From a virus: DNA of 64,000 nt. The notes beneath the pieces are model-generated. The model was not told the DNA's origin. It was given only the letters and a program-made list of their open reading frames with translations, and ran no database searches. The position numbers and the translations under genes were made by a program. Positions within the stretch are counted from its first letter, which is position 1. Every line of letters begins with the position of its first letter. The stretch covers positions 1-64,000 of the IMG/VR virus record IMGVR_UViG_3300036900_000443, one strand, 5' to 3'. This document shows, one piece after another, positions 3,001-52,939 of the stretch.

Positions 3001-5259
3001 CGCTGGCGGCAGCTCGCTGGTATCCGCTGCCGGCTCACCCGCCGCCGTGTTGCGCGTGAGAGGCGCACCAAGCTCTCGGTTCGGCAACAGCAGCGCATCG
3101 CCATTCGCTGGACTCAAGCCGATTTCCGCGGCGTCCGACTGCAGCTGCTCGGCTTCTTCGGCGCTGAGATGATCCGGATCGAGACCCAGCACGACCGCCA
3201 ACGCACGCTGCGCCGCTTCCTGTTCCTTCACATCGCGCAAGATATGAATGCGCTCCGGATCTTCGACCATGCTTGCCAGATAACTCAAAGCGTCCGGCAA
3301 GCGCGTGTTGCCCTGCAGCAACACTGGCACATCGCCCATGCGCATTTGCTGCCCGTTATTCCGCCGGCGCAGCAGGCGCGACAATGCTTTAATTCCTTCT
3401 CCGTCGGCACTGACGGGCGTGCCCTGTTGGGACACGTGCTGCGAGATGTCTCGCGCTGTCTCGGCTTCTTCCTCCGGAGTGACGGTGGTTTCCGTACGAG
3501 CCACCGGAACGTCTTCTCCGTTCGCGGCTGTCATGGTAGTGGCAGCCGGCAGATCGTCGCCATGCGTCAACGTTTCGCCCACAGCTGAGGGGTCCGGCAC
3601 CACCGCACCGGGAAACCAATTCTGCGGATCCTTGGGGATCATGCCGTGCTCGCTGTACACGAAACGGGTGCCCGGCGGCACTTGCGAGGCTTCGATCTGC
3701 CGAGCGGGACCAAAGAGCGCAGGCTCTTCGACCGGCCCCGCCATGGGCTCGATGCGCTCCTCGGGCGCTGCGACTCCCTCTTCGCCGGCATAGAAGGTGC
3801 CCGGCGTCCGCTCTTGCGGCACGGGCAAGCCGCGCTCGGCTGCCATCTGTTCCGGCGTGCGCACCGTACCATCAGCATCGACTCGCGAGGCGCCCATGTA
3901 CTGCCGCGTATCAGCCATGCGCGTTTCGGTGCCATCGTCCCAGCGCATCCATTCTTCGCCGTCTCGCAGGTACGGTTCGCCCCATTTGTTGGGCTCAGGA
4001 CCGGTCGGGGCAGCTACCTGCGCCGGCGGCACCGGCGGCATGGGATACACCTGCTCTTCAACCGGCGGACCGGGAGGAGGCAATCCTAACGGAGCCTGCG
4101 GAGTCGGCGGCGCTTCTGCCGTTTCGCCTGGCATGGCGTACGCTCGCCCCGACGTCTCTCCAGCCCAACGCTGTAGTGGCCCCGGAGGAGCGCCTGCCGG
4201 CGCCTGCCAGGGCACCAGGCCGAGCTCTTGCGTGGCTGGCTCTACTGGCTTGACGGGGGGTGGCGTGGCCGGATGAATCCAGGCATGCACGGCGCCGCCC
4301 AAGACCGTAGCCGCCGCGGCCGGCGCCAGGTTATCGAGCAGCTGATGGCCGAACTTCGCCGCATACTCGTCCGGATGGTCGAGTATCTCGTTGCGCTTGT
4401 CCTGGTCATAGATGGCATCGCCTACGTCCTGCACCATGGGCAGCGCTTGGAAATTCGCAATGTCCTTCGACCAGCCTTTGAGAAACGCCCAGCCCAAGGC
4501 CTTCGCCATCTTGGTCTTATTGGTGGGATCCGCGATCGCCGACTCGGCTGCTTTCCCCACCAGCGATTCGACGGTCGCTTCGCCGGCGTCCTTAGCGCCA
4601 TTCCGCACCATGGCCTGCGCCAGCGCTTCGCCCATCGTCTCGGCGCCGCCCTTGCCAAACAGCTTGCCCACCACGGCGCTGACTGCGCCGACACCGAGCG
4701 GTACACCAATCTTCGTCGCTGCTCCGACGGGCCCATGCTTCTGCTGATACTGATCGATCGCATCCGCCGCGGTGTTATACGCTCCGCCGGCAAAGGCTCC
4801 CAGTAGCGCTGGTGTGGCTAATTGCCCCACCACCGGAAGCGCTTCGGCGCCCACCATGGCAGCAATCGGCGCGGCCGCTCCCGAGATGCGACCCAGGACG
4901 CTCTGCTCGTGCGCCTGCGTCCAAGCCGACAGCGGCTTGTTAATCCCTTCAAAGAAATGCTGCGCCCCTTGCGCCAACGGCTGCAAGGCAGGTATCGCTG
5001 TGCTGCTGACATCGCCGGCAAAGCGTGACAATCCTGCCAGGCCCTCGGTCCCCATCTCGAGCGTGGAGCCAAAAGCCGCCGGCAGGATATCTTCAAAGCC
5101 CAGCCCTTTGTCCGCAGGAGGGGCGGCCGTCGGCGCCGGCTGCGCAGAAGCAAAGCGCGGCAATACCCGCCGCTTCAGGTGATCCTGAATCTGTGCGTCC
5201 GTCCAGTCGTCGGGATACTGCAGACCAAGACTGGTGCCGGGGATGGTTACGTTCGGCAT
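1..5259 (-). CDS. Giant polyvalent virion protein, N-terminal part (3' end outside window)
   Basis: An uninterrupted reading frame of 1753 codons runs from an ATG at 5259 to the left edge without a stop. The ATG directly follows the stop of the upstream gene (TAGATG). Residues about 125-165 and 180-205 are Gly/Ala-rich hydrophobic segments, as in internal or ejected virion proteins. A long Pro-rich region follows. At residues 888-892 the sequence HEMLH matches the HExxH zinc-peptidase motif, inside VVHHEMLHAAR. Very large multi-domain proteins of this kind, delivered with the phage DNA, are known as polyvalent proteins, and metallopeptidase domains are common in them. The C-terminal piece is probably the frame entering at the right edge (62420-64000). 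Being a giant internal virion protein is well supported; protease activity is inferred from the motif alone. Confidence 0.8.
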   Translation of the reverse strand, partial: MPNVTIPGTSLGLQYPDDWTDAQIQDHLKRRVLPRFASAQPAPTAAPPADKGLGFEDILPAAFGSTLEMGTEGLAGLSRFAGDVSSTAIPALQPLAQGAQHFFEGINKPLSAWTQAHEQSVLGRISGAAAPIAAMVGAEALPVVGQLATPALLGAFAGGAYNTAADAIDQYQQKHGPVGAATKIGVPLGVGAVSAVVGKLFGKGGAETMGEALAQAMVRNGAKDAGEATVESLVGKAAESAIADPTNKTKMAKALGWAFLKGWSKDIANFQALPMVQDVGDAIYDQDKRNEILDHPDEYAAKFGHQLLDNLAPAAAATVLGGAVHAWIHPATPPPVKPVEPATQELGLVPWQAPAGAPPGPLQRWAGETSGRAYAMPGETAEAPPTPQAPLGLPPPGPPVEEQVYPMPPVPPAQVAAPTGPEPNKWGEPYLRDGEEWMRWDDGTETRMADTRQYMGASRVDADGTVRTPEQMAAERGLPVPQERTPGTFYAGEEGVAAPEERIEPMAGPVEEPALFGPARQIEASQVPPGTRFVYSEHGMIPKDPQNWFPGAVVPDPSAVGETLTHGDDLPAATTMTAANGEDVPVARTETTVTPEEEAETARDISQHVSQQGTPVSADGEGIKALSRLLRRRNNGQQMRMGDVPVLLQGNTRLPDALSYLASMVEDPERIHILRDVKEQEAAQRALAVVLGLDPDHLSAEEAEQLQSDAAEIGLSPANGDALLLPNRELGAPLTRNTAAGEPAADTSELPPAEETALTEPEAPAEKPAEAAPQAPPSVAEQFRAERTRAEQAAPQPVPEENLGGLTKAIRDKTVIDTLLKEMKRVGFAKRVPIAFVESLRAHGDMQAMGGYTKLGQGVGQMLIALRSFDQYDSLKQIKREVVGVVHHEMLHAARHMGLLTEHEFQSLLARAKVARYVDPESGEKSFMPATNSKGQVIGAMTPFEYAQHVYGAHLPKAEVEEEAVAALLQDTATDLIAPDIKTAGMLNRFTDFFLKTRKALDNAGFRKPEDILSDFEAGRIAERTGDRQGGEAERLRSMGSPTMAAAQNLMRLIPRDILEKELKENGFDPKWLRQIPREVDKNGEHIREKGWAPYYKTYEDALQRNGGNTRLAEQVATVHANKVARAIIRRAYDRVNELVPGKFDKKKGRKVGGMEAIFGSFAQFKRDFPRLPTGVQWHKGDRRMAGLEGTARVDKYWYEHAREMMPYVNWDEIDPKDFTTVMAVTSGGNTPYQNLQRALVVKSQQVRGEPVDIGGKVTAPLSDYVMTGQTDTPKFYTFGNNLYFQMNPEPRHVTEEPELPKLTTDTWTGKSLRVPLQQFGAGRRGGAWHLFSHYLHQYAAGEHNALVPNRMEQRYAPHQLQAGMWGHIREKDPDNLAPPGDHYGLAMQRVHQRLVEEGILKPGEPIGLKALRNPRLIRVLSPGEGEYRKALRIAAEVKRSRDQGQINLDTAVDNLRSLPEHMKTKEVHTLIDSIDKRDATFIGHLGTPLRSVVEYLYNRLKDPSGPELKGKDLIRRHSVGLGSYTSDAGAVAAHNFQVAFHGVPEKYREQIATIAAAVLGKEFTQDGVGITKQEALPRERAKQANRWAIHIPGLRMNRIEAQDLRNAIGRDMTIYQGAQSGDIIHTHQPWGPEGPSEPHWTKAETDTLAKQLFDDYQVVPIKEDRSEILGDKEYHTHAHIQDAARRLGFDRAAEADTSPAAGLAGAAQPIERGGGEPPSGLERADQKPRTASERLLDHLAQLKGEEEESEEP

Positions 5260-49853: not shown

Positions 49854-49915
49854 ATGGCTAGGTCAGGTCCGGCGCGGCCTGGCGGGGCCTGGTCAGGTGA
49901 GGTAAGGGAAGTATC
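49854..49915 (+). repeat. GG-pentamer block with GGGAAGTATC, first unit
   Basis: After the stop at 49851 the sequence can be cut into five-base words that mostly begin GG (GGCTA GGTCA GGTCC, then GGCGC GGCCT GGCGG, GGCCT GGTCA GGTGA GGTAA) and ends with GGGAAGTATC at 49906-49915. This first unit serves as the leader of the gene at 49945. Confidence 0.8.
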
Positions 49916-49944
49916 CATTTCAAATCCGGTAAAGGAAGACAAGG

Positions 49945-50538
49945 ATGATTGAGACCTACGTAATAAAGATTCGAGGCTTATCTCCGTTGCTGCATCACCG
50001 CTACGGCGGCGAGCAACCGACACAGCCGAAACCGAGGGTAAAGACGCAGGCGTGGATTGACTCTATGCACAAGAAGGATTGGACCACCAGCGCTTATTGG
50101 GATGAGCAAATCGGCTTTCATGTTCCTGGCGATTCAGTAAGCGCCATGTTGGCGGAAGGCGCCAAGCGCATGCGTAAGAAGCCGACCTTTGAAACCTTCT
50201 CCGAGTGTCAGGAGTTCATGCTGCCGCTGATCTACTACCGCTCACCGGAAGACAAAGAGGGCGTTTACTTGAAGGGCAACCTAGAAGACTACTACGTTCG
50301 CGAGCACATTGATCTCAGGCGCTCCGTAATCCCTTCAACCGGCGCCTCGGTTGATCGCTGCCGTCCAGTGTTTAAGCACTGGGGGCTTGAGTTCACGGTG
50401 AATATCGAGAACCGCTTTCTCTCGTTAGCTGACCTGCAGAGCGCCATGGAGTGGGGATGCCTGTGTGATTTTCGCCCCCGCTTCGGACGCTTTGCGGTCG
50501 AGAAGATTGAGCAGCGCAAGGCGCGTAAAACGGCATAG
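49945..50538 (+). CDS. Unknown protein embedded in the pentamer array (197 aa)
   Basis: The gene is bordered on both sides by pentamer blocks. AAAGGAAGACAAGG precedes the ATG. The protein has a strand with a basic loop at the start (YVIKIRGLSPLLHHRYGGE), a helical middle and a glycine-poor, Arg-rich motif near the end (CDFRPRFGRFAVEKI). The order of strand, HH motif and RPRFGRF resembles RAMP-type RNA-binding folds, but the match is too weak to assign. A role in handling the G-rich RNA or DNA around it is an attractive idea only. Confidence 0.6.
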   Translation: MIETYVIKIRGLSPLLHHRYGGEQPTQPKPRVKTQAWIDSMHKKDWTTSAYWDEQIGFHVPGDSVSAMLAEGAKRMRKKPTFETFSECQEFMLPLIYYRSPEDKEGVYLKGNLEDYYVREHIDLRRSVIPSTGASVDRCRPVFKHWGLEFTVNIENRFLSLADLQSAMEWGCLCDFRPRFGRFAVEKIEQRKARKTA

Positions 50539-51237
50539 GGCTTGTGACTGGACGAGTCGGGGCTTGGTCTGGAATGGCGTGGCAAGGGAAGTATCCAAGC
50601 GAGGTTTGGCGTGGCAGGCCGTGCTGAGGCGAGGCGCGGCGAGGCGCGGTAGGGGAAGTATCAAAACAGATTTGCAAATGGCATGGCAGGTGAGGCCTGG
50701 TGAGCCGAGACTGGGCATGGCGAGGCGAGGGAAGTATCCAAGAAGTTTCGGCGCAGTAGGATCTGGCGTGGCGAGGCGATGCATGGCATGGCGGGGAAAG
50801 CTAGGGCAGGGAGAGGCAGGGGAAGTATCCATCGAGATGAGGCTTGGCTGGCTTGGGTGCGGCCTGGTAAGGCCAGTCGAGGCGCGGGTTTGGCTTGGTG
50901 CGGCATGCCGTGGCATGGCTGGGCTTGGTGAGGTCTGGGAAGTATCAAAGCTTTGAGTTGGGGCTGGGCGCGGCTTGGCTCGGCGAGGAGGGGAGAGGCA
51001 GGGCAGGGGAAGTATCAAAGTTGAGTTTCGGCTGAGGCCAGGCTTGGTCTGCTCGGGAGTGGCAAGGTAAGGGAAGTATCAAAAGTTTAACAAGAACAGG
51101 CGAGGCTTGGTCAGGTTGTGCCAGGCATGGTGCGGCATGGCTTGGTGAGGGAAGTATCAAAAGTTCAATCAGGACAGGCCTGGCAGGGCAGGGCCCGGCC
51201 AGGCAGGGCGAGGCGAGGGAAGTATCAATCGACACAC
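50539..51237 (+). repeat. Array of GG-pentamer blocks separated by GGGAAGTATC (nine further units)
   Basis: GGGAAGTATC occurs at 50586, 50653, 50729, 50820, 50937, 51007, 51071, 51149 and 51217, spaced 64-117 bases. Each copy follows a block of degenerate five-base words of the type GGYNN (GGCAT, GGCGA, GGCTT, GGTCA and so on) and is followed by a short AT-richer piece, often AAAAGTTTAAC or similar. Because the period is five, no reading frame can be conserved; long frames on the minus strand (50425-51018) are Pro/Ser/Ala low complexity and were rejected. Confidence 0.85.
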
Positions 51238-51729
51238 ATGATCAATCCAATACGCCCACATCCAGAGTGGAAGCAGCTCTGGCACGAAATGAATACGGTG
51301 CTGGCGACCGGGCAGCTATGGGGATATAGCGAGTTGCAAACGATCGCCGGCATTGACGTACGTAGCAGCCGAGGACGAGCACAGTTTCTGCGCTTCGCCA
51401 GAGAAGTAGAAGACAAGCTGGACCTGCACTTCGAGTGCGAACGCACCATAGGCTATCGCGTCGTGAAGGCTAACGAGCACGGCACGTGCAGCCTGGGGCG
51501 TGTGCGGCGTGGGTACCGGCAAGTGAAGCGAGGAGAACACATCGCCTCGCATACGCGCACAGATGAATTAACGGCGACAGAAGCGGCGCGGCTGATGAAT
51601 GTTTTAGCGCACACCGGCCGGCTCTTATCACATTTTGCCGGCGAGACAAAAGTGCTGCGTAAGAACGAAAAAGAGATTCGCCGCGGGGGAGACCTTCCGC
51701 GCCTACTAAAACCAGTGGAAAACAAATGA
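51238..51729 (+). CDS. Unknown protein after the pentamer array (163 aa)
   Basis: The ATG follows the last GGGAAGTATC copy by only 11 bases (AATCGACACACATG), so array and start context merge. Residues about 10-70 look like a winged helix (QLWHEMNTVLATGQLWGYSE, LQTIAGIDVRSSRGRAQFLR), and the C-terminus is basic. A DNA-binding role is plausible. No family recognised. Confidence 0.65.
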   Translation: MINPIRPHPEWKQLWHEMNTVLATGQLWGYSELQTIAGIDVRSSRGRAQFLRFAREVEDKLDLHFECERTIGYRVVKANEHGTCSLGRVRRGYRQVKRGEHIASHTRTDELTATEAARLMNVLAHTGRLLSHFAGETKVLRKNEKEIRRGGDLPRLLKPVENK

Positions 51730-51730
51730 T

Positions 51731-51997
51731 ATGACGTTCGGAGAATGGCTGAAGCGTGCTCATCCACGCCATCCCTTTGAGCACGACTTTCGCATAGATG
51801 CGTTGTTCTACGAGCAGGAGGGCGAATCGTTTGCAGAGGAAGACTTTTCCGATGTGCGCGACCTGATCAGCAACATGGAGCATGCAACGGGACGTGGCAA
51901 CCGGCCGTGCGCGGAAGCGGTAGAGGGCGCCGTACGCTGCTGGGTGCGCTGGCGCCAGAGCGAAGAGAGAAGGGCGTCTGTGCCCAGAGAGGAATGA
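51731..51997 (+). CDS. Small acidic protein (88 aa)
   Basis: MTFGEWLKRAHPRHPFEHDF is followed by an acidic region (GESFAEEDFSDVRDLISNME) and a helix with Trp (AVRCWVRWRQSEERR). Starts two bases after the upstream stop and overlaps the next start (ATGA). Unknown function. Confidence 0.6.
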   Translation: MTFGEWLKRAHPRHPFEHDFRIDALFYEQEGESFAEEDFSDVRDLISNMEHATGRGNRPCAEAVEGAVRCWVRWRQSEERRASVPREE

Positions 51998-52704
51998 AAG
52001 TCATCATCGCCGGCAGCCGAGTAATTACCGATTCGGCCATCGTAGAGAAGGCGATCGCCGAAGCCGGCTTCAACGTCAGCGAGGTTGTTTCTGGCCACGC
52101 GAACGGGGTGGACAAGGTGGGCGAGAACTGGGCGTGGAGACGCTTTATCCCGGTACGCTGTTTTCCCGCAGACTGGAATCGCCATGGCAAGTCTGCCGGC
52201 GTACGACGCAATGAACAGATGGCTGCGTACGCCGAAGGCCTCATTGCTGTTTGGGATAACCAAAGCCGCGGCACGCAACACATGATCGAATGCGCCCGGA
52301 TAAAGAAGCTGAAAGTCCACGTTCACATTCCGTCGGCGTTTCGACGTGATCCAGCTGAGTATGTTTCTAACGGAGACGAAGGATCGGAATTGGGCTGGGC
52401 GCTGGCGGACGAGGGCATGCAGCGGGCTGACGACCACAAATCGGAGGAGTGGAAAGCGGCAGCCGATCAAGCTATCGAGGATACCGCCCGCGCTCTCCCG
52501 CAATTAACCACCGACGACGTGCGGGGCCTGCTTGAAAAGCGAGGCTATGGCACCAAAAATTGCAGCGCGTTAGGAGCTCGCATGAAAGCGGCCAGGATAC
52601 AGGGATGGATTGAGCCGGCGGGTGCGGTGAAGCGCTCTAAGATTTCCTCTACGCATTGTCGGCCCCAGCCTGTTTGGCTATCTCTCATTTACCAAGGCAA
52701 ATAG
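51994..52704 (+). CDS. SLOG (YspA/DUF2493)-domain fusion protein (236 aa)
   Basis: Residues 1-105 are a SLOG Rossmann fold of the YspA type: MKVIIAGSRVITD, VSGHANGVDKVGENWA, then WNRHGKSAGVRRNEQMAAYA and GLIAVWDNQSRGTQHMI. Such domains bind nucleotides or their derivatives and are frequent in phage and conflict systems. Residues about 125-236 form a second helical, winged-helix-like module (AIEDTARALPQLTTDDVRGL, GARMKAARIQGWIEPAGAV) that occurs alone in many phages of GC-rich hosts. The fusion suggests that a nucleotide signal is coupled to nucleic-acid binding. Confidence 0.75.
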   Translation: MKVIIAGSRVITDSAIVEKAIAEAGFNVSEVVSGHANGVDKVGENWAWRRFIPVRCFPADWNRHGKSAGVRRNEQMAAYAEGLIAVWDNQSRGTQHMIECARIKKLKVHVHIPSAFRRDPAEYVSNGDEGSELGWALADEGMQRADDHKSEEWKAAADQAIEDTARALPQLTTDDVRGLLEKRGYGTKNCSALGARMKAARIQGWIEPAGAVKRSKISSTHCRPQPVWLSLIYQGK

Positions 52705-52708
52705 ATTT

Positions 52709-52939
52709 ATGTTGACCGAAGAAACTCAATCAGATCCAAGGCTGAAGGAATCGGTAATGCGGCTCGATGTGCCAATACGCGTCAAGAACGCTTTGTACTT
52801 TGGCCATGTTTGCACGATCGGCGACCTTGTGAACCAAACTCCAGAGTCGCTGTTTCGCTTAGACCAATGCGGAAAGGGCGCCATTCGCTGTATTCACGAA
52901 GCGCTTGCCAAGCTCGGTCTATCGCTGAAGGCCGGTTAG
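52709..52939 (+). CDS. RNA polymerase alpha C-terminal-domain-like protein (76 aa)
   Basis: Residues 18-73 (LDVPIRVKNALYFGHVCTIG, DLVNQTPESLFRLDQCGKGA, IRCIHEALAKLGLSL) follow the bacterial RpoA C-terminal domain closely: the LxxxxRxxNxLxxxxIxTxGDLV start, the central turn and the final EIxxxLxxxGLSL helix pair. The protein is free-standing, with no alpha N-terminal domain. The alpha-CTD binds UP-elements and activators, so a phage copy could bind DNA, occupy activators or enter polymerase. Helix-hairpin-helix proteins are an alternative reading. Confidence 0.7.
   Translation: MLTEETQSDPRLKESVMRLDVPIRVKNALYFGHVCTIGDLVNQTPESLFRLDQCGKGAIRCIHEALAKLGLSLKAG

Follow-up and report, generated by a model that had tools for sequence, protein, structure and literature searches.

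VIPR (Viral Interference Programmable Repeat) is an RNA-guided DNA recognition system with a gapped code, which was described in a 2026 preprint and proposed to be older than CRISPR (PMC13142463). Its effector, Vipr, is a RAMP protein, and its guide, the vrRNA, consists of 9–16 YNNGG repeats with hypervariable NN positions, and an invariant tail at the 3′ end; through its NN pairs it recognises double-stranded DNA, skipping one base, by which rival mobile elements are repressed (PMC13142463). VIPR loci, of which seven types are distinguished, are described as carrying an accessory vap gene, that of type II being vap1 with a predicted DNA-binding product, and a structured pseudoknot tail is published for the SUSP1 clade only (PMC13142463). 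A literature search retrieved no further paper in which both names, Vipr and vrRNA, are used for such a system.

Here we analysed the first 64,000 bases (the window) of a phage record of 68,495 bases, in which an array of GG-rich five-base words surrounds one gene and precedes another. The sequence-only reading of this DNA knew of no described system of such a form, which no longer holds. We concluded that the array and its genes almost certainly constitute a VIPR locus of a temperate tailed phage, the vrRNAs of which would silence rivals.

Anatomy of the array

The array extends from 49,856 to 51,226 bp and is punctuated by the decamer GGGAAGTATC. As first noticed from the sequence alone, there are ten exact copies at the places given, all on the + strand, and no other exact copy occurs in the whole 68,495-base record. 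With one mismatch allowed, 13 matches were found in the window against 2.3 expected, a number reached in none of 100 shuffles. To describe the blocks in front of the decamers, words were read backwards from each GGGAAGTATC in steps of five, and the clean stretches yielded 92 of them. Position 1 was G in 89 and position 2 in 84 of the 92 words, position 3 was a pyrimidine in 85 (60 C, 25 T, and 7 A in the rest), and positions 4 and 5 were mixed. The GGYNN words that had been reported before each decamer are thus real and in register, and runs of at least five GG at period five were confined to the array when the whole window was checked. The blocks themselves stood as described, but their proposed size of 7–20 words did not, as the clean GGYNN runs comprise 5–14 words each; similarly, the AT-richer pieces between the units are present, but they are only loosely alike.

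Seven of the ten units reach, in register, the nine repeats that form the lower end of the published range of 9–16 YNNGG repeats, the remaining ones being shorter or slipped (Table 1). One-base slips occur in several blocks (e.g., at 50672–50688 and about 50884) and make their 5′ part look decayed; the slipped or short units 2, 4, and 8 may be dead. The argument that a period of five cannot encode protein holds as a functional inference, but the composition of the arrays leaves some reading frames open, so that an open frame within them does not indicate a gene. The array region showed no sigma-70-type promoter, and Rfam gave no match within the window.

Table 1. Features of the putative VIPR locus (positions in the window)
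Feature	Position (bp)	Strand	Description
vrRNA unit 1	49856–49915	+	Ten GGYNN repeats and tail GGGAAGTATC
vipr	49945–50538	+	197 aa; RAMP-fold guide-RNA-binding protein by homology to SUSP1 Vipr
vrRNA unit 2	50561–50595	+	Five clean repeats and tail; one-base slip, decayed 5′ part
vrRNA unit 3	50603–50662	+	Ten repeats and tail
vrRNA unit 4	50689–50738	+	Eight repeats and tail; two further upstream repeats in slipped register
vrRNA unit 5	50750–50829	+	Fourteen repeats, partly degenerate, and tail
vrRNA unit 6	50887–50946	+	Ten repeats and tail; more from about 50839, register one base off
vrRNA unit 7	50962–51016	+	Nine repeats and tail
vrRNA unit 8	51036–51080	+	Seven repeats and tail
vrRNA unit 9	51099–51158	+	Ten repeats and tail
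vrRNA unit 10	51172–51226	+	Nine repeats and tail; ends 11 nt 5′ of the vap1 start codon
vap1-like	51238–51729	+	163 aa; VIPR accessory protein; phrog_5926, E = 3e-7

Genes of the locus

The whole gene observed within one interval of the array proved to be vipr, the effector of the system. Its product matched the Vipr protein of SUSP1 (PDB 36pp_D) with E = 8e-12 as a single sequence and with 5e-59 as a profile built from 21 relatives, and it was assigned to phrog_4652 (2e-20), the family to which gene 95 of wV8 and P21_9 of LESphi2 also belong. The AlphaFold (AF2) model (pLDDT 84, pTM 0.80) had its best PDB matches among Csm3/Cas7-type RAMPs of type III and VII CRISPR systems (E about 1e-6); 36pp was absent among the matches listed for the model, the structure library ending in April 2026. 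A peptide-pattern search for close Vipr relatives found nothing.

The last decamer had been taken for the leader of the gene that follows, and unit 10 does indeed lie directly in front of vap1. The match of the vap1-like product to phrog_5926 is weak but consistent; the genes that follow vipr in wV8/SUSP1 and LESphi2 belong to this family too. Judging from this match, the product appears to belong to the SUSP1 Vap1 family, by which the locus would be type II-like. The locus thus combines a RAMP-homologue Vipr, GGY/NN repeats, an invariable tail, and a vap gene. In the proposed arrangement, ten putative vrRNA units are placed before and after vipr, and the probable Vap1-family gene closes the locus.

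Directly after the locus, a YspA/SLOG-type protein (51997–52704) and a phage integrase (53203–54477) are encoded, and the 76-aa product of 52709–52939 resembles the C-terminal domain of the RNA polymerase alpha subunit (PF03118, E = 7e-6). The phage is a tailed one, and the integrase marks it as temperate. No tRNA is present, and the terminase relatives were too distant to point to a host.

Association of arrays with Vipr

The sequence-only reading had also suggested the units as templates of a G-rich regulatory RNA, which was right in kind, as they match VIPR guide RNAs. When IMG/VR was searched for seven GGYNN words in a row, at least 120 stretches were retrieved, and a profile search detected Vipr in 78 of 120 such viral loci among the matches listed, but in none of 193 viral loci that had been retrieved with unrelated patterns. 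In contrast to this, Vipr was found in only 4 of 120 loci when a genome collection was scanned for nine GGY words, thus the bare GGY pattern is unspecific in high-GC chromosomes. Comparison of the array with phages by blastn gave weak, unrelated matches only, and the GGYNN period by itself suffices to find such arrays from raw sequence. GGYNN arrays together with Vipr were also seen in four bacterial-genome contigs (L156, L170, L185, and L195), from Aureimonas ureilytica and from MAGs of Fibrobacteres, Patescibacteria, and Selenomonadales. One further locus (L032, 6300–6980) contains a single, apparently unbroken tract of about 135 GG words at period five, far more than the published 9–16 per vrRNA.

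The short tail and its relatives

The tail GGGAAGTATC is identical in all ten units and recurs in two related phages, G016 and G019. A scan for GGGAAGTATC preceded by two GGY words returned 26 contigs, about the number expected by chance. Four of them are real arrays or lie beside a Vipr, L253, L254, and L257 with repeats in register and L266 with a looser array beside Vipr; most of the single matches, having no in-register repeats, were dismissed as chance. The Viprs of L253 and L254 fall outside the clade of the window's protein. The Viprs of the window, G019 (L257/L491), and G016 (L266/L492) form one clade (99/91), the identity between the window's Vipr and that of L266 being 44%, and the Vap1 proteins of G019 and G016, which have the same role, are 39–40% identical to the window's. 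The order in G019 is that of the window, with vipr, two vrRNAs ending in GGGAAGTATC, and then vap1, while the arrays of G016 lie only outside the vipr–vap1 pair. Since both phages share the tail, the Vipr clade, and Vap1, tail and protein travel together in a small branch. The check proposed earlier, namely a database search for related phages with the same repeats and a comparison of what lies between them, settled the identity of the locus; vipr, vap1, and arrays are kept together in both G019 and G016.

The ten tails with 25 nt downstream showed no shared fold, and the structured pseudoknot of the published tail was not found in them. In the same comparison, the tails of wV8 folded as a hairpin and those of L494 carried a long hairpin. 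The reverse strand of L494 (1952–3841) bears a VIPR array with the tails GGGAAGTATC, GGGCAGTACC, GGGTAGTACC, and similar ones, which start with GGG-AGTA or nearly so; a strong hairpin of differing sequence follows each tail, suggesting that the tail structure is conserved through compensatory changes. It seems that the tail box is older than the hairpin, or that the hairpin was lost in the lineage of the window. We judge the chances to be about even that in the sub-branch of the window, G016, and G019 the constant part of the vrRNA is only the short unfolded tag GGGAAGTATC. If so, the hairpin or pseudoknot handle would be dispensable, ten letters would be enough to define a guide, and the guide bank would sit inside the vipr–vap1 operon. 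The minimal tail would then offer a means of testing what a vrRNA handle needs.

Proposed function and candidate targets

The units would be co-transcribed with the vipr–vap1 operon and cut apart near the tail. By analogy with the described system, Vipr would coat each vrRNA and hold the GGY triplets, and the NN pairs would read the target dsDNA with one skipped base between pairs, leading to repression of the target gene. The genes silenced in this way would belong to rivals that share the host, either phages or prophages. An alternative is that the locus is VIPR by descent, but its vrRNAs regulate the phage's own genes, for instance in the choice between lysis and lysogeny. The phage is temperate, and vrRNAs are able to repress any matched DNA; however, under the 1-nt-skip rule none of the units fitted its own genome better than shuffled guides did, whether or not G-U pairs were allowed, and we regard self-regulation as very improbable.

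Targets of the silencing of rivals were sought in IMG/VR with the eight central pairs of units 1, 3, 6, 7, and 9, one base being skipped between successive NN pairs of each guide. Unit 1, whose guide letters are TA CA CC GC CT GG CT CA GA AA, matched 34 contigs, five of which also fitted pair 1, giving 18/18 over pairs 1–9. These five contigs encode one protein family, with 31–41% identity between distinct members, and the matches are in the sense frame, where the skipped base falls on the wobble position; they cover a motif YHPALGLH[DE] in a uracil-DNA-glycosylase domain fused to DNA-polymerase modules. The candidate target sequence is TANCANCCNGCNCTNGGNCTNCANGA. About two contigs at 18/18 were expected by chance against the five found, which is not significant for independent events, thus the contig count proves nothing alone. 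The restriction to a single family and the sharing of tail fibres with one target contig, G003, add suggestive weight. G003 and the window phage have tail-fibre-like segments in common at 58–77% identity; five ORF segments of G003 (one of them probably an antisense shadow) reached at least 50% identity, compared with three in the other viral loci, which amount to 3,041 kb. The common tail fibres suggest a common host of the two phages. Unit 1 may therefore be aimed at the YHPALGLH[DE] motif of phage uracil-glycosylase/DNA-polymerase genes.

Unit 6 matched nine contigs at 20/20 against 0.14 expected, all belonging to one virion-protein-like family, which is not significant for independent events, as one family was matched and four such guides were tried. 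The phages that carry this target (about 44% GC) have hardly anything in common with the window phage, and because of this nearly missing link the match may be due to chance. The IMG/VR matches of units 3, 7, and 9 were at chance level, those of unit 9 forming no coherent family, and the other guides gave no signal on the target contigs of units 1 and 6, even with G-U pairs. As a whole, the predicted targets are suggestive only.

The sequence-only reading had also proposed that the repeats are docking or recombination sites, at which genes are gained and lost with the help of an exonuclease and an Erf-like annealing protein. The repeated units do flank genes, and this protein pair is encoded about 5 kb upstream of the array. 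Nevertheless, the flanked genes are vipr and vap1, which are kept with arrays in the two related phages, the letters vary at NN only, as guides require, and Vipr occurs in most array loci irrespective of the neighbours (among the matches listed). This proposal has found no support, and we give it even less credence than self-regulation.

TRAP is a ring-forming protein that recognises triplets separated by two bases. That such a protein binds the array as a leader or attenuator, as its roughly ten repeats of a triplet with a two-nucleotide spacer and the position of the last unit directly before a gene might suggest, is the least credible explanation of all, as a RAMP protein, Vipr, is encoded inside the array, its published relative binds exactly such RNAs (PMC13142463), and a controlled leader has no need of ten different guides.

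Comparison with known systems

Judging from the model, the VIPR effector proposed here shares its fold with the RAMPs of type III and VII CRISPR systems (Csm3, Cas7), but the guides of the window consist of pentamer repeats. A Class 1 CRISPR-Cas system was rejected, as the units share only the 10-nt tail and the GGY frame, and besides the RAMP there was no cas gene among the genes scanned, which included neither Cas1 nor Cas2, nor was a CRISPR array seen.

Felixounavirus wV8 (genes 95 and 94) and the Pseudomonas prophage LESphi2 (P21_9 and P21_8) encode members of both protein families, likewise with vipr first, and vrRNA-like arrays adjoin the gene pair. They differ in that their Viprs are only about 27% identical to that of the window, and in their tails, which are hairpin- or pseudoknot-like in wV8 and of another kind in LESphi2, in contrast to the short tail found here. 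The vipr–vap1 pair of wV8 has 95% DNA identity to that of SUSP1. In LESphi2 (L250, OQ594955.1, P. aeruginosa LESB58), the locus is unannotated as VIPR; it lies at 3590–5073 bp, where several GGYNN arrays are followed by vipr (P21_9) and vap1 (P21_8), and it adjoins CI and a sigma-factor gene. G019, one of the two closer relatives, has two units between vipr and vap1, compared with nine in the window.

The described system of SUSP1 (KT454805.2; PDB 36pp; PMC13142463) is likewise phage-borne and has, as the window does, proteins of the Vipr and Vap1 families, GGY/NN repeats that end in an invariant tail, and a G-rich strand running in the direction of the genes. In SUSP1, vipr and vap1 lie side by side, preceded by one vrRNA and followed by three, whereas the window has ten units, nine of which lie between the two genes; the published SUSP1 tail is a structured pseudoknot, whereas that of the window is 10 nt long without a conserved hairpin. 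The locus is distinctive in its ten-unit bank, in the placement of this bank between vipr and vap1, and in a tail that is short and unfolded. To the VIPR phages tested so far it adds a distant temperate phage with a bank of ten guides, one of which, unit 1, has a plausible rival in a phage sharing tail fibres.
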